This document shows, in pieces, positions 15,437-25,471 of a DNA stretch of 25,471 nucleotides; within the stretch, counting starts at the first letter, position 1; each line of letters starts with the position of its first letter. Both the position numbers and the translations under genes were made by a program. The DNA is from a virus: IMG/VR virus record IMGVR_UViG_3300027759_002963, positions 1 through 25,471 of that record; one strand, given 5' to 3'. A model generated the notes under the pieces. It did no database searches, was not told where the DNA came from, and was given only the letters and a program-made list of their open reading frames with translations.

Positions 15437-16123
15437 ATTGTATTTTTCCCAATCGTGTGGGTGGTTATCCATATGTGTAAAATGCACATACTTAATATCA
15501 GGATAAAATTCATTTCCTAAAAACATATAAGGATTACCAGTTACCTGATTATATAATCTATTCAGTGTAGCTACAGTATGTCTTGCAAAATGTTTGTTTC
15601 TAGCCTCCATTCTACAAAACCATTCATTTGGTAATTTAATCAATTTAAGTTTTTCTTTAACTGAATCCTCTATAAAGTGTTGTTCACCATTAATCGGGCC
15701 TGAAGTAAATCCTTCTTCTATATATTTTTTCTGCCAATGTTCTGGATTGCTCATAAATTTTTCGTAAATGTAATGACAATCTTTTGGAAAATACTTGTAA
15801 AATCCTCCATTAATACTAAATCGTTTTCCTTCTTCTCCCTTTAAATCTCTCCACCATCCTGGAGCAGCTAAAAACTGGCCAGGTTCTATAGGGTATTCAA
15901 ATATTTTTTTATAATCATTGATTAATAATATGTCAATATCTATTACACATATAGGTTCATCAATGTTTAGGGTCATACCATACATTTTGTTCCATTGCAA
16001 TTTAATATTATCGGCCATTGGTTCTCTTATCCAAACAAATTCATATTCAGGTAGTTTACTTTCCAAATATGTTTCATATTCAGGACCATATCTATTGCCA
16101 ATTCTAACTGCTACTATTTTCAT
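15425..16123 (-). CDS. GT-A-like glycosyltransferase with DxD motif (cassette 1, last gene)
   Basis: This 232-residue protein looks like a small nucleotide-sugar-dependent glycosyltransferase. The N-terminal beta strand KIVAVRIGNRYG is followed by a helix and then PICVIDIDILL, where Asp62-Ile-Asp64 is the candidate metal-binding DxD. Acceptor-side residues may include the aromatic APGWWRDL segment and NGEQHF near 145-150. It shares layout with the 221-residue protein encoded at 17254-17919: same N-terminal K/R-x-G-x-x-Y pattern and same DxD position. They are probably distant paralogues. Its start overlaps the methyltransferase stop by four bases (ATGA), so it is translated as the last gene of the minus-strand cassette. 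The donor and acceptor are unknown. Confidence 0.68.
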   Translation of the reverse strand: MKIVAVRIGNRYGPEYETYLESKLPEYEFVWIREPMADNIKLQWNKMYGMTLNIDEPICVIDIDILLINDYKKIFEYPIEPGQFLAAPGWWRDLKGEEGKRFSINGGFYKYFPKDCHYIYEKFMSNPEHWQKKYIEEGFTSGPINGEQHFIEDSVKEKLKLIKLPNEWFCRMEARNKHFARHTVATLNRLYNQVTGNPYMFLGNEFYPDIKYVHFTHMDNHPHDWEKYNLFV

Positions 16124-17253
16124 ATTTTTTGCAATGCTACTTGATTTTTTTTAGGTATAATTAATTCTTTAATTTTATTTTTATATATTTTTTTAAAACT
16201 ATCTACCGCTAATTTAGGACTTAAAGTTTCATCTTCTAATATTTGATTTGTATTATGATCTCTGGCCTTCCAATTTACTGCGTCATCAATTAACATTATA
16301 CCATTATCATTTAGTATATTAAAAGAATATATTAAATCTTGCATAACAATATGCGATCTATGATCTCCATCAATGTATATAAAATCAAATTTTTCTTTTG
16401 TGTGAATTAACTTTTGAAGTACATTTAAAGAATAGTCTTTATAATAAGTTATTTTATTATTGTTTTTACAGTTGTGTAAGTTATGTAACCAATTTTTCTC
16501 AACAGTATTAAATAAAGATTGCGATAAATTGTAAATATCTGATTTGAAAGGATCTATAGTGTATATTTTTAAATCATAATTATCGGCTAACCATAATGAA
16601 TATTTTCCTTCAAATGTTCCTATTTCTAATACTCTTTTAACAGAATTGTTTTTGAACAAATGTTTTGTATTTTCTATTGCGTTATCTGACCAATTTCTAT
16701 TGAATTTGTAATTACCAAATTTAGAATAATATTCATTTAGAGACATTTTAGGTACATTAAAATATTTTATATCTCCTATGTAATATATGTATCTCCAAGA
16801 AGAAGATTTTTCAGAATCTTTTCCTACTTGATATAGTTTATTATCGTCAACATAAAAACCTTTTTGTTTGTATATTCTTTTTATTGGTTTAGAATTAGGA
16901 TGCCTAGATATAAAATAAAAATCATATTTTTTTGTGTCAACTAATAAATTAATTCCATTTTGATAAATGTCTTTCATGGTTTTTAATGATAGTTTTCCAG
17001 CAAATTTAGGATTTGCAAAAAATTTAGTGTTACATCTTATAACATTTTTATCGTATAAATCACCATTTCTGGCTGTATATGAATATGCTGGTTCTTCATC
17101 TATTAAAACAACACCAAAATAATTATCATTTTTATCTTTTATTACTTTTTTGATATTTAATTTTTTAGCTACTGTTTGTAAATAATCAAATTCAAAATAT
17201 GGTTTATTAGATAAAATATATTTAATATTATCTTTTACACTTTCAATGTACAT
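16120..17253 (-). CDS. Two-domain protein: possible GNAT-like N-terminus plus SAM methyltransferase
   Basis: This 377-residue protein has a clear class I methyltransferase domain at about 190-377. Motif I is VLEIGTFEGK (208-217), an acidic residue follows the second strand in YTIDPF (231-236), FIYIDGDH lies at 291-298, and ILNDNGIMLIDDAV at 313-326. This order resembles the Methyltransf_24 type, common in sugar and natural-product clusters. The first ~165 residues are separate. DNYFGVVLIDEE, then strands, then IKRIYKQKGFYVDDNKLYQVG (125-145) recall the end of a GNAT acyltransferase, but no acetyl-CoA loop is obvious, so this part is tentative. The gene abuts the upstream glycosyltransferase exactly and overlaps the next by ATGA. 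The methyl acceptor may be a sugar or a modified small molecule. Confidence 0.78.
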   Translation of the reverse strand: MYIESVKDNIKYILSNKPYFEFDYLQTVAKKLNIKKVIKDKNDNYFGVVLIDEEPAYSYTARNGDLYDKNVIRCNTKFFANPKFAGKLSLKTMKDIYQNGINLLVDTKKYDFYFISRHPNSKPIKRIYKQKGFYVDDNKLYQVGKDSEKSSSWRYIYYIGDIKYFNVPKMSLNEYYSKFGNYKFNRNWSDNAIENTKHLFKNNSVKRVLEIGTFEGKYSLWLADNYDLKIYTIDPFKSDIYNLSQSLFNTVEKNWLHNLHNCKNNNKITYYKDYSLNVLQKLIHTKEKFDFIYIDGDHRSHIVMQDLIYSFNILNDNGIMLIDDAVNWKARDHNTNQILEDETLSPKLAVDSFKKIYKNKIKELIIPKKNQVALQKI

Positions 17254-17933: not shown

Positions 17934-18725
17934 TTAATTGTAGTCTGTTTTATCTTCTACGTTCATTTGTAGTAATGAGTATTTTCTTTCTAAACAGGCA
18001 TTACAATAACCACAGTGCGATTTTGTGGTTAAAACTGAACAACAAGTAGAGTCAAAAATTTTATCTTCTAATCCTACTATTTGATAAAATTTAATAATAT
18101 CTATCTTTTTTAAATTTTCAAAAGGTTTTTTTACTGATTGATAATAATAGTTTACTTGTTCAAATCCCCACACGTTTTCAGCTGCCCAATAATTGTTGTC
18201 AAAGTTTTTAACGTAATAATAGAGTTCAGGATATTTTTCTGAATTAGTATTTAAATAATCATATAGTTGATAGAACGATATTAAACCTTTATCCCAACCA
18301 GAATCCCATAATAGTTGTATAGTTTCTCTGTGTTTATTGTTATAACCTCCAAAAATAAATTTTACGTTATCGTATTCATTATTAATTTTTTCTACTATCA
18401 AATCATAAATCATTCTATGAGGTTCGGAAAGCCCACTACTAATGTTTAATATGTTTACAGCTCCTAATTTTTGAAGTGCTGAATTAAAACTATTTGTTAT
18501 TTTTGTTGTTTTTTTTTCATTGTTTTCTATATTAATAAATTCATCTGTAGAATTTAAAACAAAAACAATGTTTTCTATACCGTAAATTTCTTTAGCTATT
18601 AAAGCCAATAGGTGTGAATTGCTTCCTCCTGAATATAGTATTGCTATTTTTTCACCTGTTGCAATAGGTCTAAAAACATCAAAAGTGTTGAATGTTTTTC
18701 CGTTTATATTATAATTACTATTCAT
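17934..18725 (-). CDS. QueC-like PP-loop ATPase with C-terminal zinc site
   Basis: This 263-residue protein resembles 7-cyano-7-deazaguanine synthase (QueC), which uses ATP and ammonia to turn a carboxylate into a nitrile. The PP-loop is ILYSGGSNSH, with SGGSNS at 32-37. The usual SGGxDS has Asp where this protein has Asn36, an unusual change. The C-terminus has one or two Cys (228, 229), then His237-Cys238-Gly-Tyr-Cys241-Asn-Ala-Cys244-Leu-Glu-Arg, very close to the QueC zinc motif HCGxCxxCxER. An extra ~25 residues precede the PP-loop. No QueD, QueE or GTP cyclohydrolase gene is in the window. Its first bases overlap the radical SAM gene by eight, so the two are co-translated. QueC-like proteins outside queuosine synthesis are known (QatC, Cap9 of type IV CBASS). 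The substrate here is unknown. Confidence 0.78.
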   Translation of the reverse strand: MNSNYNINGKTFNTFDVFRPIATGEKIAILYSGGSNSHLLALIAKEIYGIENIVFVLNSTDEFINIENNEKKTTKITNSFNSALQKLGAVNILNISSGLSEPHRMIYDLIVEKINNEYDNVKFIFGGYNNKHRETIQLLWDSGWDKGLISFYQLYDYLNTNSEKYPELYYYVKNFDNNYWAAENVWGFEQVNYYYQSVKKPFENLKKIDIIKFYQIVGLEDKIFDSTCCSVLTTKSHCGYCNACLERKYSLLQMNVEDKTDYN

Positions 18726-19737
18726 TGTCTATTCTTTCTTCTTTAGTGTACCACAAAGTTTTTTGTGGTGTTTTAATTCCATCAACTTCAATAACGTGTA
18801 CCTGCGAACCTGTACAACGTTGATGGCAAACAGATTTGTTGTTTGCATACATTGAGTTTAACCAATCATTATATAATTTACTTTTTAAAATTTCAAAAAT
18901 ACTTTTATTATGTAATGATATATTATATTTATCTTTATAAATTGACCAGTTAGTGGATTTATGAAATAAAGAGGCTGTCCAACAACAAGGGAATAGATTG
19001 CCCCAAGAATCTACATATATTTCTTTTCTTTGTTTATGTAAACAAATAAGCGGGCCTTCTTTAATTTGCATATATTCTATATTAAAACGATCTGCTGTTG
19101 GCGGATAAATTGATTTTTTGTTATTATCTTTATCTTTATATAAGTATGGTTTTTTGAAATCCTTAAATCTTGCCGAAATTTTTAAAACAAATTCTCCAAA
19201 CCCCATTTCTTTAGAAAGTTTTTCAGCTTCTTCCACTTGATGTTCATTATGAAAAAAAGGTATAAAAAACCATTTAGCATTAGCACCTGTACTAATAAAG
19301 GCTTTTGAATTTTCCATAAGCTTAGACCATTTAACATCAACACGATATGTATGGTTTGTATCTTCTAATCCATCTATATGAAATTCTACAAAAGATTTAG
19401 GTGTTAATTTATAAAGTTTTCCTAATTTAATCCAAAAATCTGTATTTCTTACACCACCATTTGTGCTTAAAGACATTAGTATATCAGGATTATTGTCTAA
19501 AATATATTTTGTTATAGGTAATAAATCATGAGCTATAGCTGGGTCTCCAAAATTGCCACAAAATTTAAATTTTTTTAATGACTTGATAAAATCTATTGGA
19601 AAAAACTTAATAAAATTATCATAACTAATTTCTGATTGATTATTAAGTATAAGTGGATTATTAGTCCTAGAACACATAGGACACTTTGCATTGCAACGGT
19701 TGGTTATTTCAAGGTGAACGGAATCAATTTGTTTCAT
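18718..19737 (-). CDS. Radical SAM enzyme with SPASM-like C-terminal cysteines
   Basis: This 339-residue protein is a radical SAM enzyme: EITNRC-NAKC-PMC gives the CxxxCxxC cluster at Cys15, Cys19 and Cys22, which binds the 4Fe-4S cluster that cleaves S-adenosylmethionine. FCGNFGDPAIAHDL and LSTNGG follow as the usual second and third strand motifs. The C-terminus carries five more cysteines, Cys232, the pair Cys251-Cys252, Cys304 and Cys308, in the contexts VDSWGNLFPCCW and CHQRC, as in SPASM domains that hold auxiliary clusters. It is longer than, and different from, QueE. SPASM-type enzymes act on peptides, sugars or small molecules, and the substrate here cannot be told. It is first in the minus-strand cassette, behind a one-mismatch late-promoter box, and overlaps the QueC-like gene by eight bases. 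Confidence 0.88.
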   Translation of the reverse strand: MKQIDSVHLEITNRCNAKCPMCSRTNNPLILNNQSEISYDNFIKFFPIDFIKSLKKFKFCGNFGDPAIAHDLLPITKYILDNNPDILMSLSTNGGVRNTDFWIKLGKLYKLTPKSFVEFHIDGLEDTNHTYRVDVKWSKLMENSKAFISTGANAKWFFIPFFHNEHQVEEAEKLSKEMGFGEFVLKISARFKDFKKPYLYKDKDNNKKSIYPPTADRFNIEYMQIKEGPLICLHKQRKEIYVDSWGNLFPCCWTASLFHKSTNWSIYKDKYNISLHNKSIFEILKSKLYNDWLNSMYANNKSVCHQRCTGSQVHVIEVDGIKTPQKTLWYTKEERIDNE

Positions 19738-19990: not shown

Positions 19991-20338
19991 ATGGCATATA
20001 TCGCAAATTTATATCTTGATGCTGGAGCATCTTTTTCAAGTGATGTCTTTGTTCAGAATAGTGATGGTACGGCTTTTAGTTTAGCTAATCACACGGCTCA
20101 AGGAAAAATGTCCAAAGGATATTCTAATACTTATGAAAGAGTATATTTTGATATTGTAATTTATGAATCTGATGGAATTGTAACTATAAAATTAGACCCA
20201 GCTACAACAGCTCTATTAGAAGATGGCCGTTGGGTATATGATGTAGAAATAACTAACACGCTTGACAGTACAGTAACTCGTGTGGTAGAAGGTATTGTTA
20301 CTGTTTATCCTGGCGTAGTTTCTACTTATACTCCTTAA
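19991..20338 (+). CDS. Small beta-rich marine phage protein, probable virion component
   Basis: This 115-residue protein reads MAYIANLYLDAGASFSSDVFVQNSDG and then alternates short strands: AQGKMSKGYSNT, VTIKLDPATTALLEDGRWVYDVEIT, and TVTRVVEGIVTVYPGVV at the C-terminus. The layout is that of a small immunoglobulin-like or baseplate-upper-protein-like beta domain. Similar proteins with the RVVEGIVTV-NPGV ending occur among virion genes of marine myoviruses as I recall them. No catalytic residues are evident. The start lies immediately after the previous stop, so the two genes form a pair under the late promoter at 19761. The last 17 bases overlap the end of the converging GT/FkbM gene, the same end-to-end arrangement as at 15425. 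Confidence 0.72.
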   Translation: MAYIANLYLDAGASFSSDVFVQNSDGTAFSLANHTAQGKMSKGYSNTYERVYFDIVIYESDGIVTIKLDPATTALLEDGRWVYDVEITNTLDSTVTRVVEGIVTVYPGVVSTYTP

Positions 20339-21629
20339 TTTTTTTTGAAAAATGGTAATCACCATCTGGCCCGTTATCGCAAAAAGGACCAGAAATTAAT
20401 TTAAAACCTAAATTCTCAACATACTCAATTACTTCATCTCTTAGTGGTGCACCTTTGTTATATTCCACTATTTGCAATTCTAATATTAAATCTTTACAAT
20501 TTTTTAAGGCTTCTTTAGATCCTTTTAGTACATCTAATTCAGCGCCTTGTACATCTATCTTTATTAAATCTGGCATAGGCAGGTTTTTTGAACTTATAAT
20601 ACTATCTAAAGTTTTAGTTTTATATAATTTTTTATTACTTTCATTATATAATCTATTTGATTCAGAACTAATTTGTTCGTTTTCTTTATAATAACTATTA
20701 CCGCCAGGATGATAAGTGTTTTTATAAAAATTAACTTCTCTATCGTTTCTATCACTTAGTACACCTATATGATATTGTAAATTATTTTCTTTATATAAAA
20801 ATTCACACTCTGACATAGCTTCAAAAACAACATACTCAGCATTTGGCCATATTGTTTTAGCTTCACTTGTCCAGTGTAGAACACAAGCACCTATATCATA
20901 AATTACTTTTGGTAATATACTTAAACTCTTTAAATAATCTACATGCATTTGAGGCAACAATCTTTTTGTTGATAAATCTTTTAATCTATCAGGTATATTA
21001 ATTTCTTTTTTATTTACAGTTGGTGTATTGGGTGTACTTTCTACTTTAAAAATTGTATTACCTATATGTTCACAATGTACTGTTGTATCAGCAAATATTC
21101 CAAAACCTTTTGCTTTAACTTTTCTACAAAAATCAACATCTTCTGATATTGTGTTTCTATGATCTATTGCTGAATGATAAACAAAATGAGGATAAGGTAT
21201 TGATCTAAAAACTTCTCCTTTGATTAATACACAGCCCATACCACAAGCTATCAATTCTACTAATGGAATATTCTTTATTTTTTCGAATGGTATATTTGAA
21301 CAACCACCTCTATCATTAGGTTCATAAACTTCTAATATATGTTCGTTTTGTTTTCTTTGTATATAAAGGCCAGATACCATATCTTTATTATGACTTAAAA
21401 GTTTTTTAAGTGTATCTGGTGTAAATGAAATATCACTATCAACTGAAAACAAATAGTCATAACGAGTAGACCAACTTGCTATTAAATTTCTTATTTGATC
21501 TATTTGATAACCAAAGAAAAATTGTAGTTCAACTGTATAACCATCAGGAACTTCAAGATCATAAATGGCCTTCATTGTTGTTGTTTCAACATATTTGTTT
21601 GTTGGTATGGCGATCAATATCTTTTTCAT
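20322..21629 (-). CDS. Fusion of GT-A-like glycosyltransferase and FkbM methyltransferase
   Basis: This 435-residue protein joins two enzymes. Residues about 1-200 are a GT-A-like transferase: KILIAIPTNKYV at the start, QIRNLIASW, FSVDSDISF with the DxD at 64-66, SGLYIQRKQ, then SEDVDFCRK (162-170) and CEHIG, the order seen in family 2-like transferases. Residues about 240-415 are an FkbM-type methyltransferase, with IYDIGA (243-248) as motif I, VVFEAM, LDSII, and LIKIDVQGAELDVLKG (355-370) as the family signature. FkbM enzymes usually O-methylate a sugar or polyketide. The pairing implies that one chain adds a sugar and methylates it or its neighbour. The start overlaps the upstream GT fusion by ATGA. 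The 3' end overlaps the plus-strand 115-residue gene by 17 bases. Confidence 0.83.
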   Translation of the reverse strand: MKKILIAIPTNKYVETTTMKAIYDLEVPDGYTVELQFFFGYQIDQIRNLIASWSTRYDYLFSVDSDISFTPDTLKKLLSHNKDMVSGLYIQRKQNEHILEVYEPNDRGGCSNIPFEKIKNIPLVELIACGMGCVLIKGEVFRSIPYPHFVYHSAIDHRNTISEDVDFCRKVKAKGFGIFADTTVHCEHIGNTIFKVESTPNTPTVNKKEINIPDRLKDLSTKRLLPQMHVDYLKSLSILPKVIYDIGACVLHWTSEAKTIWPNAEYVVFEAMSECEFLYKENNLQYHIGVLSDRNDREVNFYKNTYHPGGNSYYKENEQISSESNRLYNESNKKLYKTKTLDSIISSKNLPMPDLIKIDVQGAELDVLKGSKEALKNCKDLILELQIVEYNKGAPLRDEVIEYVENLGFKLISGPFCDNGPDGDYHFSKKIKEYK

Positions 21630-23653
21630 TGAGTTAATATCCTATTTGCGTTTTTAGTTTGTTCTTCTGAGTTTACTTTATAATCATTTAAGGGGTGGGT
21701 ATCATTATAGTTGTAAATAATGTCCTGCACCACTTTGATCTTTTCAGGTTGACATTTTTCTATAAGAGTATAAAAAATAGAACCATCTCCTCCTGCTTTG
21801 TACCAATTTCCTTTTTCATCTTTAAACATATTCTCATTCACATTTTCTAAGAGAGAGGCCTTAAATGTTCTTAAATGAGTATAAGGCATATTCCAATTGA
21901 ATTTGTATTGTCTATATTTCTTTTCTTTTTTAATTTGTTCTGGATAAGGTTGAGATACTAAAGGTATCTTATCTACCATAGACCAACAAGAACCATAACT
22001 AAACTCGGTTGTGCCATCATAAAGATTATTGTAAAAATGAAATATTTGATTATCGTTTACTAAAGAATCATCTCCATCTAAGAACATTACTATATCATCA
22101 CTTTCACAAAATTTATTTATTGACTCTATTTGATTTCTTACAGCACCTTTATTTTCTGTATTCTTAATTACTTTAATCTTATCACTCTCATATTTTTTAG
22201 CCAACTCATAAGTATTATCTGTAGAACAATCATCAATAACAACCATTAAATAATTATCATAGTCTTGTGTAATAACCGATTTGATACATCTCTCAATATA
22301 TTTAGAAGCATTGTAAGTAGGCGTAATCAAAACAATTTTTTGTTGAGTATTTCTTGGTAAATAATTTTCTTCGTAATTGCTAAATCTTCTACCAAATACC
22401 TTTTTAACCCTAGAATTGATATGACTAACTTGTTTGTATTCTTCTTTTGAAAGATATTCTCCTAATTTTTTATATATATGTTGTTTCCATTGTAACGCAA
22501 TTGAATCCCAACCCACGATGCCTTTTATAATATTACAAGAATACATTTTTTGTTGATGTAAATATCTATTATTATTGGCCTGTAAAACCATATTTACAAA
22601 TTTATTTTCTTGTTCTTTTTTGTCAATAAATTTAAAAAGACTATTTGGTTCTATTGCATAATCGATTAAATAACAGGCCTGTTCAACGGCAGTTTCTTCT
22701 AAAGCTCCAAAACGAGTTGTAATTAAAGGAGTGTTATAAGCTAAAGATTCTAAAGTTGAAATACCAAATGTTTCAGGAAAGGCACCAGGAAATAACATAA
22801 AGCTGGCTTTTGCCATCAATTCTGCTATTTCAGATTGTTTAATTATACCTGTAAACTCTATATCTAATTTTTTATATTTTTCATCAGCGACTAATTCTCT
22901 CCATTTTTTTTCTTGTTCATCAGGAATAGCATTTTCTCTAAATCTATAATATCCACCAATTACTTTTAATTTAGCTTGAGGTATTTGTTGTTTAATTCTT
23001 TCCCATATATTCTCAACTAGAGGCAACATGCCTTTTGTAACTGAAGCATTGTAAACATATAAATGAGGATCTTTTTGTCTTATGTCTATTTCATCTTTAT
23101 AAAGAACAATACCATTACGTGTCATAAACATATGAGATTTTAATACTTCAAAATTTCTTCTTTTACCATGATCGCATGTAGTTACATAAGAAGTATGAAA
23201 ATCTGAAAGAGTAAATATTTCATCCATATCTTTGTGAACGATCATATCTTCTAGTAGATGATCTCCTTTAGCAAAAGTATCATGCATCCACATTGCTTTA
23301 AATTTAGCATTTTGTTTTATTTTAGAATATCTTTGAGGTTTAAAATTTTCAAATTGGTTATATAAATGAGGTGGTAAAAATGGTATTACTGTTCTGGAAG
23401 ATATGACCACATCAAAACTAAAGTCGTTTTTATAATCTAATATGGTATGATCTATATATTGAACATTATCGAATGTTCCTTCTTTCGATTCTTTATCTAT
23501 ACAATTATTAAATACAGTTACTTTAAAATTTTTTTTAGCAAGTTCTTTAGCGAGTAAAATAACGGCGGATTCTGAGCCTCCTAAACCTCTTTTGTTTAAG
23601 GTGTCGCCGTCATAAGTCAATCCAATAATGTCAATAATTGCTATAGAAATCAT
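21626..23653 (-). CDS. Bifunctional GT-B + GT-A glycosyltransferase
   Basis: This 675-residue protein carries two transferase domains. The N-terminal GT-B part (about 1-400) has the donor-loop-like GLGGSESAV (24-32), MWMHDTFAKGD, KLKVIGGYY and the C-terminal half motif FPGAFPETFGISTLESLAY (about 288-306), where the E-x-F-G-x-x-x-x-E pattern of GT4 binds the nucleotide sugar. The C-terminal GT-A part (about 435-675) is GT2: VLITPTYNASKYIERCI, VVIDDCSTDNT, NKGAVRNQ and VMFLDGDDSL (about 521-530), the metal-binding acidic motif. Such fusions make two linkages in sequence. No membrane segment or signal is seen. It is the first gene of the second cassette, behind a perfect leftward late box, and divergent from the collagen-like fibre gene across 79 bases. 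Confidence 0.87.
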   Translation of the reverse strand: MISIAIIDIIGLTYDGDTLNKRGLGGSESAVILLAKELAKKNFKVTVFNNCIDKESKEGTFDNVQYIDHTILDYKNDFSFDVVISSRTVIPFLPPHLYNQFENFKPQRYSKIKQNAKFKAMWMHDTFAKGDHLLEDMIVHKDMDEIFTLSDFHTSYVTTCDHGKRRNFEVLKSHMFMTRNGIVLYKDEIDIRQKDPHLYVYNASVTKGMLPLVENIWERIKQQIPQAKLKVIGGYYRFRENAIPDEQEKKWRELVADEKYKKLDIEFTGIIKQSEIAELMAKASFMLFPGAFPETFGISTLESLAYNTPLITTRFGALEETAVEQACYLIDYAIEPNSLFKFIDKKEQENKFVNMVLQANNNRYLHQQKMYSCNIIKGIVGWDSIALQWKQHIYKKLGEYLSKEEYKQVSHINSRVKKVFGRRFSNYEENYLPRNTQQKIVLITPTYNASKYIERCIKSVITQDYDNYLMVVIDDCSTDNTYELAKKYESDKIKVIKNTENKGAVRNQIESINKFCESDDIVMFLDGDDSLVNDNQIFHFYNNLYDGTTEFSYGSCWSMVDKIPLVSQPYPEQIKKEKKYRQYKFNWNMPYTHLRTFKASLLENVNENMFKDEKGNWYKAGGDGSIFYTLIEKCQPEKIKVVQDIIYNYNDTHPLNDYKVNSEEQTKNANRILTQ

Positions 23654-23732: not shown

Positions 23733-25471
23733 ATGCCAGTAATTAAAGGTCAGAATCAACAAGTAAAAGTTACTCTTCCATCACGTGGAGGATTTACAGG
23801 TTCATCTGGAGGTGTTGGATTTACAGGATCATCAGGTTCTTTAGGTTACACTGGTTCAGCAGGCGCTGGTTATACAGGTTCAGCTGGTTCAACAGGATTT
23901 ACAGGATCATCAGGTTCTTTAGGTTACACTGGTTCAGCGGGCGCTGGTTATACAGGATCAGCAGGCGCCGGTTACACAGGTTCAACAGGATTTACCGGAT
24001 CAGCAGGAGTTGGTTATACAGGATCAGCAGGTGCTGGTTATACAGGTTCAACAGGATTTACCGGATCAGCAGGAGTTGGTTATACAGGATCAGCAGGAGT
24101 TGGTTATACAGGATCAGCAGGAGTTGGTTATACAGGATCAGCAGGAGTTGGTTATACAGGATCAGCAGGTGCTGGTTATACAGGATCAAAAGGAGATTTA
24201 GGGTATTCAGGAAGTTTAGGATTTACAGGATCAGCCGGTGCTGGTTACACAGGCTCAACAGGATTTACCGGTTCAAAAGGAGATTTAGGATTTACAGGAT
24301 CAGCCGGTGTTGACGGAACAATTGGTAGAGACGGCTACACAGGTTCAATAGGATATACTGGATCAGCAGGTGCTGGGTACACAGGCTCTAAGGGAGATTT
24401 AGGATTTACAGGAAGTTTAGGATTTACAGGATCAGCAGGTGCTGGTTATACAGGTTCAAAAGGAGATTTAGGGTATTCAGGAAGTTTAGGTTACACTGGT
24501 TCAGCAGGCGCTGGTTATACAGGTTCAAAAGGAGATTTAGGATTTACAGGTAGTTTAGGATATACAGGATCAGCCGGTGTTGACGGAACAATTGGTAGAG
24601 ACGGCTACACAGGTTCAATAGGATATACTGGATCAGCAGGTGCTGGTTATACAGGTTCAACAGGATTTACCGGATCAGCAGGAGTTGGTTACACAGGATC
24701 TTCTGGAGTTGGTTATACAGGTTCAACAGGATTTACCGGATCAGCAGGAGTTGGTTACACAGGATCTTCTGGAGTTGGTTATACAGGTTCAACAGGATTT
24801 ACAGGTTCACAAGGTATTATAGGATTTACAGGATCAGGAGCAGATAGTCCTTTAGTTTTTACAACATCAGGAATTTATAGAACACTTACAGGTTACACTG
24901 AAAGTGGAACAACATCTACAGTAAGAACGGCAGAATTTGTTTCTAGTGCTTTAAGATTAACTTTAGCAACATTTACACCTACACTAGCGGCAGCAGGAAC
25001 GCCAAGTGCTTCTCCAAATTGGGACGTAGCAGCAACAGGATTTACAGTTACAGTAACTAATCCTGATGACGTGACAAGTGATTATATTAGTTCTGTTTAT
25101 TCAATAACAGGAACAACAGGCAGTGTAACAGGAACATTAGGTTCATATACAGCAGGAGCTAAAAGTAATACACCAGCAGCCACTATAGATTGGACACAAA
25201 CTTTTACTACAAATGGTTCATCATATATTAGACCAGTTTCATCTACAATCACTGGAGGTTCAGCAGCGGCTACTGTTAGATTTAATCACAATACAGGTTC
25301 AGAATCAGAATACACAACAAGTAATGCTAGTTTTACTATTACATGGGCAACACCTTCAATGAGTTTATCTAAATCTGATAAAAGTGGTTCAACATTTTTA
25401 AAAACTTATACAACTACAACTTATACAGCTTCTGTAACAGGTATTACAACTGCTGCTAATTATGTTCATAG
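23733..25471 (+). CDS. Collagen-like tail fibre protein, 3' end beyond the window
   Basis: The frame from ATG at 23733 stays open to the last base, giving at least 579 residues. It begins MPVIKGQNQQVKVTLPSR, a short N-terminus that probably anchors to the virion. Residues 19-369 are Gly-X-Y triplets rich in GYT, GFT, GSA and GSL, with occasional charged inserts (GSKGDLG, GVDGTIGRDG). The register is broken many times by a G-A-G or G-V-G dipeptide step. From residue 370 a Thr/Ser/Ala-rich beta region follows (NPDDVTSDYISSVYSITG, WTQTFTTNGSSYIRPV, FNHNTGSESEYTTS), looking like immunoglobulin-type modules. Collagen-like shafts are known in phage fibres and form trimers. The gene diverges from the glycosyltransferase cassette across a shared promoter region. 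The tip that would bind a receptor is not in view. Confidence 0.85.
   Translation, partial: MPVIKGQNQQVKVTLPSRGGFTGSSGGVGFTGSSGSLGYTGSAGAGYTGSAGSTGFTGSSGSLGYTGSAGAGYTGSAGAGYTGSTGFTGSAGVGYTGSAGAGYTGSTGFTGSAGVGYTGSAGVGYTGSAGVGYTGSAGVGYTGSAGAGYTGSKGDLGYSGSLGFTGSAGAGYTGSTGFTGSKGDLGFTGSAGVDGTIGRDGYTGSIGYTGSAGAGYTGSKGDLGFTGSLGFTGSAGAGYTGSKGDLGYSGSLGYTGSAGAGYTGSKGDLGFTGSLGYTGSAGVDGTIGRDGYTGSIGYTGSAGAGYTGSTGFTGSAGVGYTGSSGVGYTGSTGFTGSAGVGYTGSSGVGYTGSTGFTGSQGIIGFTGSGADSPLVFTTSGIYRTLTGYTESGTTSTVRTAEFVSSALRLTLATFTPTLAAAGTPSASPNWDVAATGFTVTVTNPDDVTSDYISSVYSITGTTGSVTGTLGSYTAGAKSNTPAATIDWTQTFTTNGSSYIRPVSSTITGGSAAATVRFNHNTGSESEYTTSNASFTITWATPSMSLSKSDKSGSTFLKTYTTTTYTASVTGITTAANYVH
24063..24158 (+). repeat. Four perfect tandem 24-base repeats in the shaft
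   Basis: The unit GGATCAGCAGGAGTTGGTTA plus TACA occurs four times in a row without change, coding GSAGVGYT four times. A fifth copy at 24159-24182 differs only in GGTGCT for GGAGTT. The exactness implies recent expansion. Confidence 0.88.
24293..24376 (+). repeat. Long direct repeat in the fibre gene, copy 1
   Basis: These 84 bases recur identically at 24563-24646, 270 bases (90 codons) downstream. They code for the segment with GVDGTIGRDGYTGSIG, the only charged, non-YTGS part of the shaft. An in-frame duplication of about 270 bases explains the pair. Confidence 0.85.
24563..24646 (+). repeat. Long direct repeat in the fibre gene, copy 2
   Basis: This is the second identical copy of the 84-base block at 24293-24376. 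After it the two sequences diverge, at GGTTAT versus GGGTAC, so the limits of identity are clear on both sides. Confidence 0.85.

Follow-up and report, generated by a model that had tools for sequence, protein, structure and literature searches.

The canonical 7-cyano-7-deazaguanine synthase QueC (PF06508), as found in E. coli and B. subtilis, combines a PP-loop (HUP-type) fold carrying an SGGxDS loop, a C(x)8CxxCxxC zinc site, and an operon shared with QueD and QueE with three substrate motifs (YxQxHxxE, VPxRN, and YPDC) containing residues indispensable in E. coli (PMC13329287). This scaffold has been recruited repeatedly outside queuosine synthesis, as in QatC and Cap9 (PMC13329287, PMC13279940, PMC11996544); QatC does without the QueC substrate motifs, and both proteins retain SGGxDS and work with ATP, the loop always being retained as far as PMC13329287 reports. 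Separately, the variable island of pelagimyophages has been described as a host-recognition cluster that holds GT8 glycosyltransferases and radical SAM cassettes, with no mention in that work (PMC7029224) of a QueC-like gene coupled to a radical SAM enzyme. Thus, radical SAM genes in such islands and recruitment of QueC are both known already. What is new with respect to the literature searched, which yielded no description of it, is a radical SAM enzyme coupled to a QueC-like partner that has lost its nucleotide loop, and it is such a pair that is analyzed here.

The window, that is, the whole stretch of DNA analyzed (25,471 nucleotides), is a 25.5-kb piece of a T4-like phage genome. Its gp6 baseplate protein shares 71% identity with the counterpart in Pelagibacter phage Mosig and 58% with the one in HTVC008M; on the strength of this identity, the virus is most likely a pelagimyophage, and its host, as judged from the same relationship, would probably belong to the ocean's most abundant bacteria. 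The pair opens a minus-strand cassette, continued by gC, gB, and gA (Table 1), which is set between plus-strand baseplate and tail genes of T4-like type, in line with an earlier placement of the pair inside a phage virion region, and the whole resembles the tail and host-recognition region of pelagimyophages. Beyond a second minus-strand cassette, an open-ended, Ser/Thr-rich, fibre-like ORF (23733-25469) contains long collagen-like GYTGSAG/GFTGS repeats (GxTGS) and is a possible target of the adjoining glycosyltransferases.

Table 1. Features of the pair and its cassettes, by position in the window
Feature	Position	Strand	Basis or remarks
gA, probable GT-A-like glycosyltransferase, DID motif, 232 aa	15425-16123	-	Present in every close relative
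gB, C-terminal SAM methyltransferase (Methyltransf_24), variable N-terminal half	16120-17253	-	Pfam E 8e-14
gC, GT-A-like glycosyltransferase, 221 aa	17254-17919	-	PHROG glycosyltransferase E 2.5e-11; DLD motif, D80-L81-D82 invariant
QueC-family protein, degenerate PP-loop, intact zinc site, 263 aa	17934-18725	-	ORF, Pfam, AlphaFold2 model, purifying selection
Zinc-site cysteines C229, C238, C241, C244; C(x)8CGxCxxC	17994-18041	-	Invariant in 31/31 phage proteins compared
Degenerate PP-loop SGGSNS, residues 32-37	18615-18632	-	Alignment and entropy comparison
Overlap of radical SAM gene end and QueC-like gene start, 8 bases	18718-18725	-	
Radical SAM enzyme, twitch-like (half-SPASM) C-terminal cysteines, 339 aa; first cassette gene	18718-19737	-	ORF, profile matches, orthologues
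Auxiliary-cluster cysteines C232, C251, C252, C304, C308	18814-19044	-	CX13GX4C plus CX3C
CX3CX2C, ligands of SAM-binding [4Fe-4S] cluster: C15, C19, C22	19672-19695	-	Invariant in both radical SAM alignments
Second minus-strand cassette	20322-23653	-	FkbM methyltransferase and GT4+GT2 protein; Pfam E 6e-16, 2e-24, 1e-15
FkbM methyltransferase, glycosyltransferase-like N-terminus	20322-21629	-	Pfam
GT4+GT2 protein	21626-23653	-	Pfam

The two genes of the pair are translationally coupled and co-inherited. The ORFs overlap just as the sequence-only reading had stated, and, counting that of the window, 11/12 distinct close cassettes, down to 53% radical SAM identity, have the identical 8-base overlap, which is replaced by a 3-base gap in L002. 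Sixteen IMG/VR contigs recovered with the radical SAM protein as query, and one more recovered by alignment search, share the pair, so its occurrence is not due to chance; the order radical SAM, QueC-like, gC is kept in 17/17 of them down to the same 53% identity, with gC following either directly or behind one GNAT-like gene that has no Pfam match. The radical SAM orthologues are 53-97% identical, and the distances of the two proteins correlate across 14 loci (r 0.83). With gC as the sampling point, 23 of 25 loci that have a radical SAM gene also have a QueC-like gene, against 0 of 55 loci that lack a radical SAM gene. The contrast is inflated by relatedness, so that its p value is no genuine probability, and most of the 55 are distant gC relatives. 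Single departures were seen: the QueC-like gene is missing from L042 (105-kb contig G009), which has the radical SAM gene and relatives of gC, gA, and gB, and both members of the pair are missing from L079 and L080, where a close gC is present. In divergent phages (L200, L207, and L038), the gene directly after the radical SAM gene is QueC-like and encodes an intact loop, and a QueC-like gene lies inside the fetched flanks of 12 of 73 further radical SAM-anchored loci. Bacterial genomes yielded no instance of the pair; seven MAG contigs, which may themselves be phage, encode radical SAM proteins at 32-35% identity without QueC-like genes. The phage-isolate collection gave no match to the QueC-like protein and radical SAM matches only ~27% identical. 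A viral-contig scan with the QueC-like protein as a single-sequence query was likewise empty because the peptide patterns are too variable, and the radical SAM and alignment queries did work. In some relatives, about five or six radical SAM genes, encoding proteins of 390-500 aa, also stand in tandem (L217, at G001:C1:36500-45500, and G003:C1:47317-53629), and the literature searched offers no explanation of what such arrays make.

Assignment of the first gene to the radical SAM superfamily follows from the invariance of its CX3CX2C motif together with profile matches. Several NCBIfam radical SAM models match it, down to E 1e-11 for N_Twi_rSAM (NF033640), with which, as with the pelagimyophage radical SAM cassettes (PMC7029224), it shares the radical SAM core, a twitch-type C-terminus, an origin in marine T4-like phages, and adjoining glycosyltransferases; its score of 44 bits, however, is far below that model's cut-off of 170. 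The Pfam models Radical_SAM (PF04055; E 4.9e-5) and SPASM (19.5 bits versus a cut-off of 21.5) are each reached just below their cut-offs. No named NCBIfam equivalog is matched, and no QueE model occurs among the 17 NCBIfam matches at E up to 1, which bears out the view that the enzyme is not QueE-like. Its five C-terminal cysteines are all invariant in 12 orthologues, and four are invariant in a wider set. A SPASM domain with two auxiliary clusters is defined by the seven-cysteine pattern CX9-15GX4C / CX2CX5CX3C / C; the middle CX2CX5 and the last cysteine are missing here. Since only CX13GX4C and CX3C are present, the enzyme would carry one auxiliary cluster at most and appears twitch-like, so that an earlier description as SPASM-like stands for the five cysteines but gives way to a half-SPASM pattern. 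The structure model of this protein (pLDDT 56.7) is too poor to place the C-terminal domain, and fold matches were set aside.

The second protein belongs to the broad QueC family (PF06508), as indicated by its Pfam score (26.1 bits against a curated cut-off of 22, mainly over the zinc end), its four-cysteine zinc site, and its PP-loop fold; the same model matches 11 of 13 aligned members at E 0.01. The AlphaFold2 model (pLDDT 85.5, pTM 0.87) also accounts for an N-terminal extension noticed earlier, which amounts to ~21 residues more than E. coli QueC and is predicted to form a beta hairpin absent from QueC. In a VIA comparison, the nearest fold is the sulfur transferase LarE (Z 14.0; the alignment spans 146 residues and starts at the N-terminal hairpin), ahead of QueC 3bl5 (Z 10.6 over 158 residues); unlike LarE, whose PP-loop is intact (SGGIDS in the aligned PDB chain), the window protein has a QueC zinc end. 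The zinc site, recognized previously from the sequence, was confirmed throughout the phage proteins compared. Nevertheless, the features of a canonical 7-cyano-7-deazaguanine synthase are lacking: YxQxHxxE, VPxRN, and YPDC are absent from the window protein and from 33 phage relatives in a test in which E. coli QueC was positive, the SGGxDS loop is altered, and the operon partner is neither QueE nor QueD. Nor does the protein resemble QatC or Cap9 in context, which is defined by an intact SGGxDS and by QatA/B/D or CD-NTase partners; the gene lies in a phage, its partner is a radical SAM enzyme, and its neighbours are glycosyltransferases and a methyltransferase.

The loop itself separates the window protein from most of its relatives. 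In a tree of 35 QueC-like sequences, it falls within a 14-row clade (support 100/99) in which the loop reads SGGSNS, TAGIKS, QGGIES, TGDIET, or EADIES and the Asp of SGGxDS is found in 0/14, its position being occupied by Glu (8), Lys (5), or Asn (1). The preceding residues vary as well (TAG, TNG, QGG, TGD, EAD), and Ser/Thr is kept at position 6 in 14/14. By comparison, 17 relatives, most of them from other radical SAM-rich cassettes, have an S-G-G-x-D-S loop that is invariant but for one Thr; entropy over the loop is zero at key positions in these intact relatives and ordinary to moderate in the clade, and by parsimony the motif state changed three times on the tree. Neither group shows any variation at the four zinc cysteines. 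The Asn in place of Asp that had been noted earlier is therefore real but not isolated, the whole clade being degenerate, and the label of PP-loop ATPase is contradicted by loss of the Asp in all 14 proteins, often together with the GG. Because the Asp is missing clade-wide, a sequencing error confined to the Asn was rejected; a decaying pseudogene was rejected as well, given the open frames of all relatives and dN/dS values well below 1. Both genes are under purifying selection, which is about three- to fourfold weaker on the QueC-like gene (dN/dS 0.14-0.32) than on the radical SAM gene (0.035-0.107), whose product is far more conserved. Clade-wide loss of the loop Asp, retention of the zinc cysteines, and these dN/dS values together indicate a maintained QueC-fold protein that is probably not an ATPase. 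Since the loop is degenerate and the QueC substrate motifs are absent, it is presumably no ATP-dependent nitrile or amide synthase, a degenerate motif in itself not being proof of lost nucleotide binding.

PAPS reductases carry a modified PP-loop motif, which the SGGxES-like loops of the clade recall. It is accordingly conceivable, though unlikely, that PP-loop chemistry survives and that the altered loop binds an adenylate and serves amidation or sulfur transfer on the product of the radical SAM enzyme, a proposal favoured also by the uniform Ser/Thr at position 6, by LarE as the nearest fold, and by the intact loops of sister proteins. Against it, Lys, Glu, or Asn at the critical position and replacement of GG by Ala, Asn, or Asp all occur within one clade, a far looser pattern than in the intact relatives. 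Arrangements with more than one QueC-like gene were also observed: at L068:4749-7163, two different QueC-like genes (loops FTGGMES and FSGGVNS) flank one radical SAM gene in a single overlapping operon, which suggests paired QueC-like subunits, and L168 and L044 each have two tandem QueC-like genes with intact loops.

Queuosine genes were sought in the window and in ten long contigs carrying relatives, all of them fragments. None of the family-searched ORFs of the window is a QueD, QueE, or GTP cyclohydrolase, in agreement with what had been reported from the sequence. The presence of QueD, QueE, and FolE in one genome, which the sequence-only reading had held to count against its proposal, was encountered in part: the 114-kb relative G001 encodes a QueE-like protein and FolE together, outside the cassette, and no QueD, transglycosylase, or second QueC was found on it, while the more distant 235-kb contig G008 has QueE-like, QueD, and FolE genes. 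Nine of the contigs gave a match to the QueC model, in each case to the cassette gene only. These genes, together with the QueC-family fold and zinc site, are what speaks for a role in deazaguanine chemistry, in which the QueC-like protein would handle 7-carboxy-7-deazaguanine made by phage QueE and FolE and conjugate it to protein or nucleic acid in the manner of Cap9 and QatC. This role is highly improbable, given that SGGxDS is lost most strongly in G001, the very carrier of QueE and FolE, whose YEADIES loop is the most altered of all and argues against the cassette gene being the QueC of that phage; that the three substrate motifs are missing from 34/34 phage proteins; and that a TGT family gene was found in 0/10 of the fragmentary contigs and QueD in 0/7 of those from close relatives. 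Plain queuosine or DNA-deazaguanine synthesis was rejected as the main reading on the same counts (motifs lost, no TGT, QueD missing in close relatives), and a deazaguanine link of the pair is unlikely. Phage QueE-like proteins with an insert between the cluster cysteines are encoded at L214:4023-4883 (minus strand) and L216:2044-2877; their relatives occur in KVP40-type Vibrio phages and in Synechococcus phage BUCT-ZZ01.

DNA identity profiles of the window against L001-L003 revealed two islands of low identity: most of the QueC-like gene (64-76%) and, sharply bounded, the N-terminal half of gB at ~16850-17253 (~66%, in DNA that is otherwise 83-97% similar). The radical SAM gene, gC, the C-terminal half of gB, and gA are mostly 85-98% identical, and synonymous divergence from L001 is three times as high in the QueC-like gene as in the radical SAM gene (0.79 versus 0.25). 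The two islands and the raised synonymous divergence point to allele exchange of both segments, as if they were swapped together, a pattern that would be expected of specificity-giving parts. A fast-evolving, allele-swapping, and presumably inactive QueC homologue might instead be a decoy that interferes with QueC-type host defences (QatC, Cap9). That possibility is very remote: the gene is strictly coupled to a radical SAM gene, similarity to QatC is weak and limited to the zinc end, and intact-loop relatives occupy the same kind of operon.

The indication of a substrate comes from the genes around the pair. In addition to gC and gA, which are related to each other by profile search (gA being 76-98% identical across relatives), recurrent neighbours across loci include two or more glycosyltransferases, FkbM and other methyltransferases, a carbamoyltransferase, a sulfotransferase, and APS kinase. 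These glycosyltransferase, methyltransferase, and sugar-decorating neighbours, together with the location in a host-recognition cluster, favour glycan tailoring on the host surface or virion. Ketosynthase, desaturase, or ferritin-like genes in some cassettes would also fit a lipid or small-molecule substrate; L038:6485-7803 and L040:9546-12418 contain ketosynthase and desaturase genes, to which the former locus adds ferritin-like genes and a small acyl-carrier-like ORF, a hint that lipids or small molecules may be synthesized by phage-encoded enzymes.

The preferred reading, to which a probability of roughly 0.4 is attached and which is thus tentative, is that the pair may form the core of a tailoring module within a glycosylation cassette of the pelagimyophage host-recognition cluster, the radical SAM enzyme supplying the chemistry and the QueC-like protein acting as its substrate partner. 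The QueC-like protein would have given up activation of a substrate with ATP and would serve as a zinc-stabilized partner that binds or presents the substrate to the radical SAM enzyme or holds the complex together. The enzyme might then subject a sugar or sugar-linked group, the sugar being proposed from the gene neighbourhood only, to dehydrogenation, epimerization, or a radical step of that kind, after which gC, gA, and the methyltransferase would transfer or finish the modified group; its place of display would be either the host surface or the phage's own fibre. Specificity could be conferred by two exchangeable parts, the QueC-like gene and the N-terminal half of gB. A bolder form of the proposal, in which a QueC pseudo-ATPase, as an exchangeable subunit, gives a viral radical SAM enzyme its substrate specificity, such that a surface or fibre modification could be changed by swapping a single gene, is considered improbable at present.

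Peptides are often the substrate of Twitch/SPASM radical SAM enzymes. For this reason, and in view of the weak NCBIfam similarity of the window enzyme to peptide maturases and of a cassette lying among tail genes close to the start of the Ser/Thr-rich repeat fibre, the enzyme could alternatively modify a phage structural protein, such as that GxTGS-repeat fibre, or a peptide, with the QueC-like protein as the substrate-recognition subunit. This alternative is regarded as doubtful, as no small precursor gene is present in the cassette, no conserved candidate protein substrate was found across loci, and the neighbourhood is dominated by glycosyltransferases and sugar-decorating enzymes. In six cassettes, no small same-strand ORF lies between the pair and its partners, and these cassettes therefore contain no RiPP precursor candidate at that place.

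Taken as a whole, the pair is real, coupled, conserved, and located outside any queuosine operon, so that the earlier proposal of a QueC relative recruited to a new modification is a fair reading once the ATPase label is removed. If correct, a viral lineage that keeps the QueC fold and zinc site, drops the loop, and is coupled to a radical SAM enzyme would imply that the QueC scaffold can work without ATP. The pair would also provide a concrete target for expression and thereby a way to learn what changes marine T4-like phages make to the host or virion surface with their many unexplained radical SAM genes.
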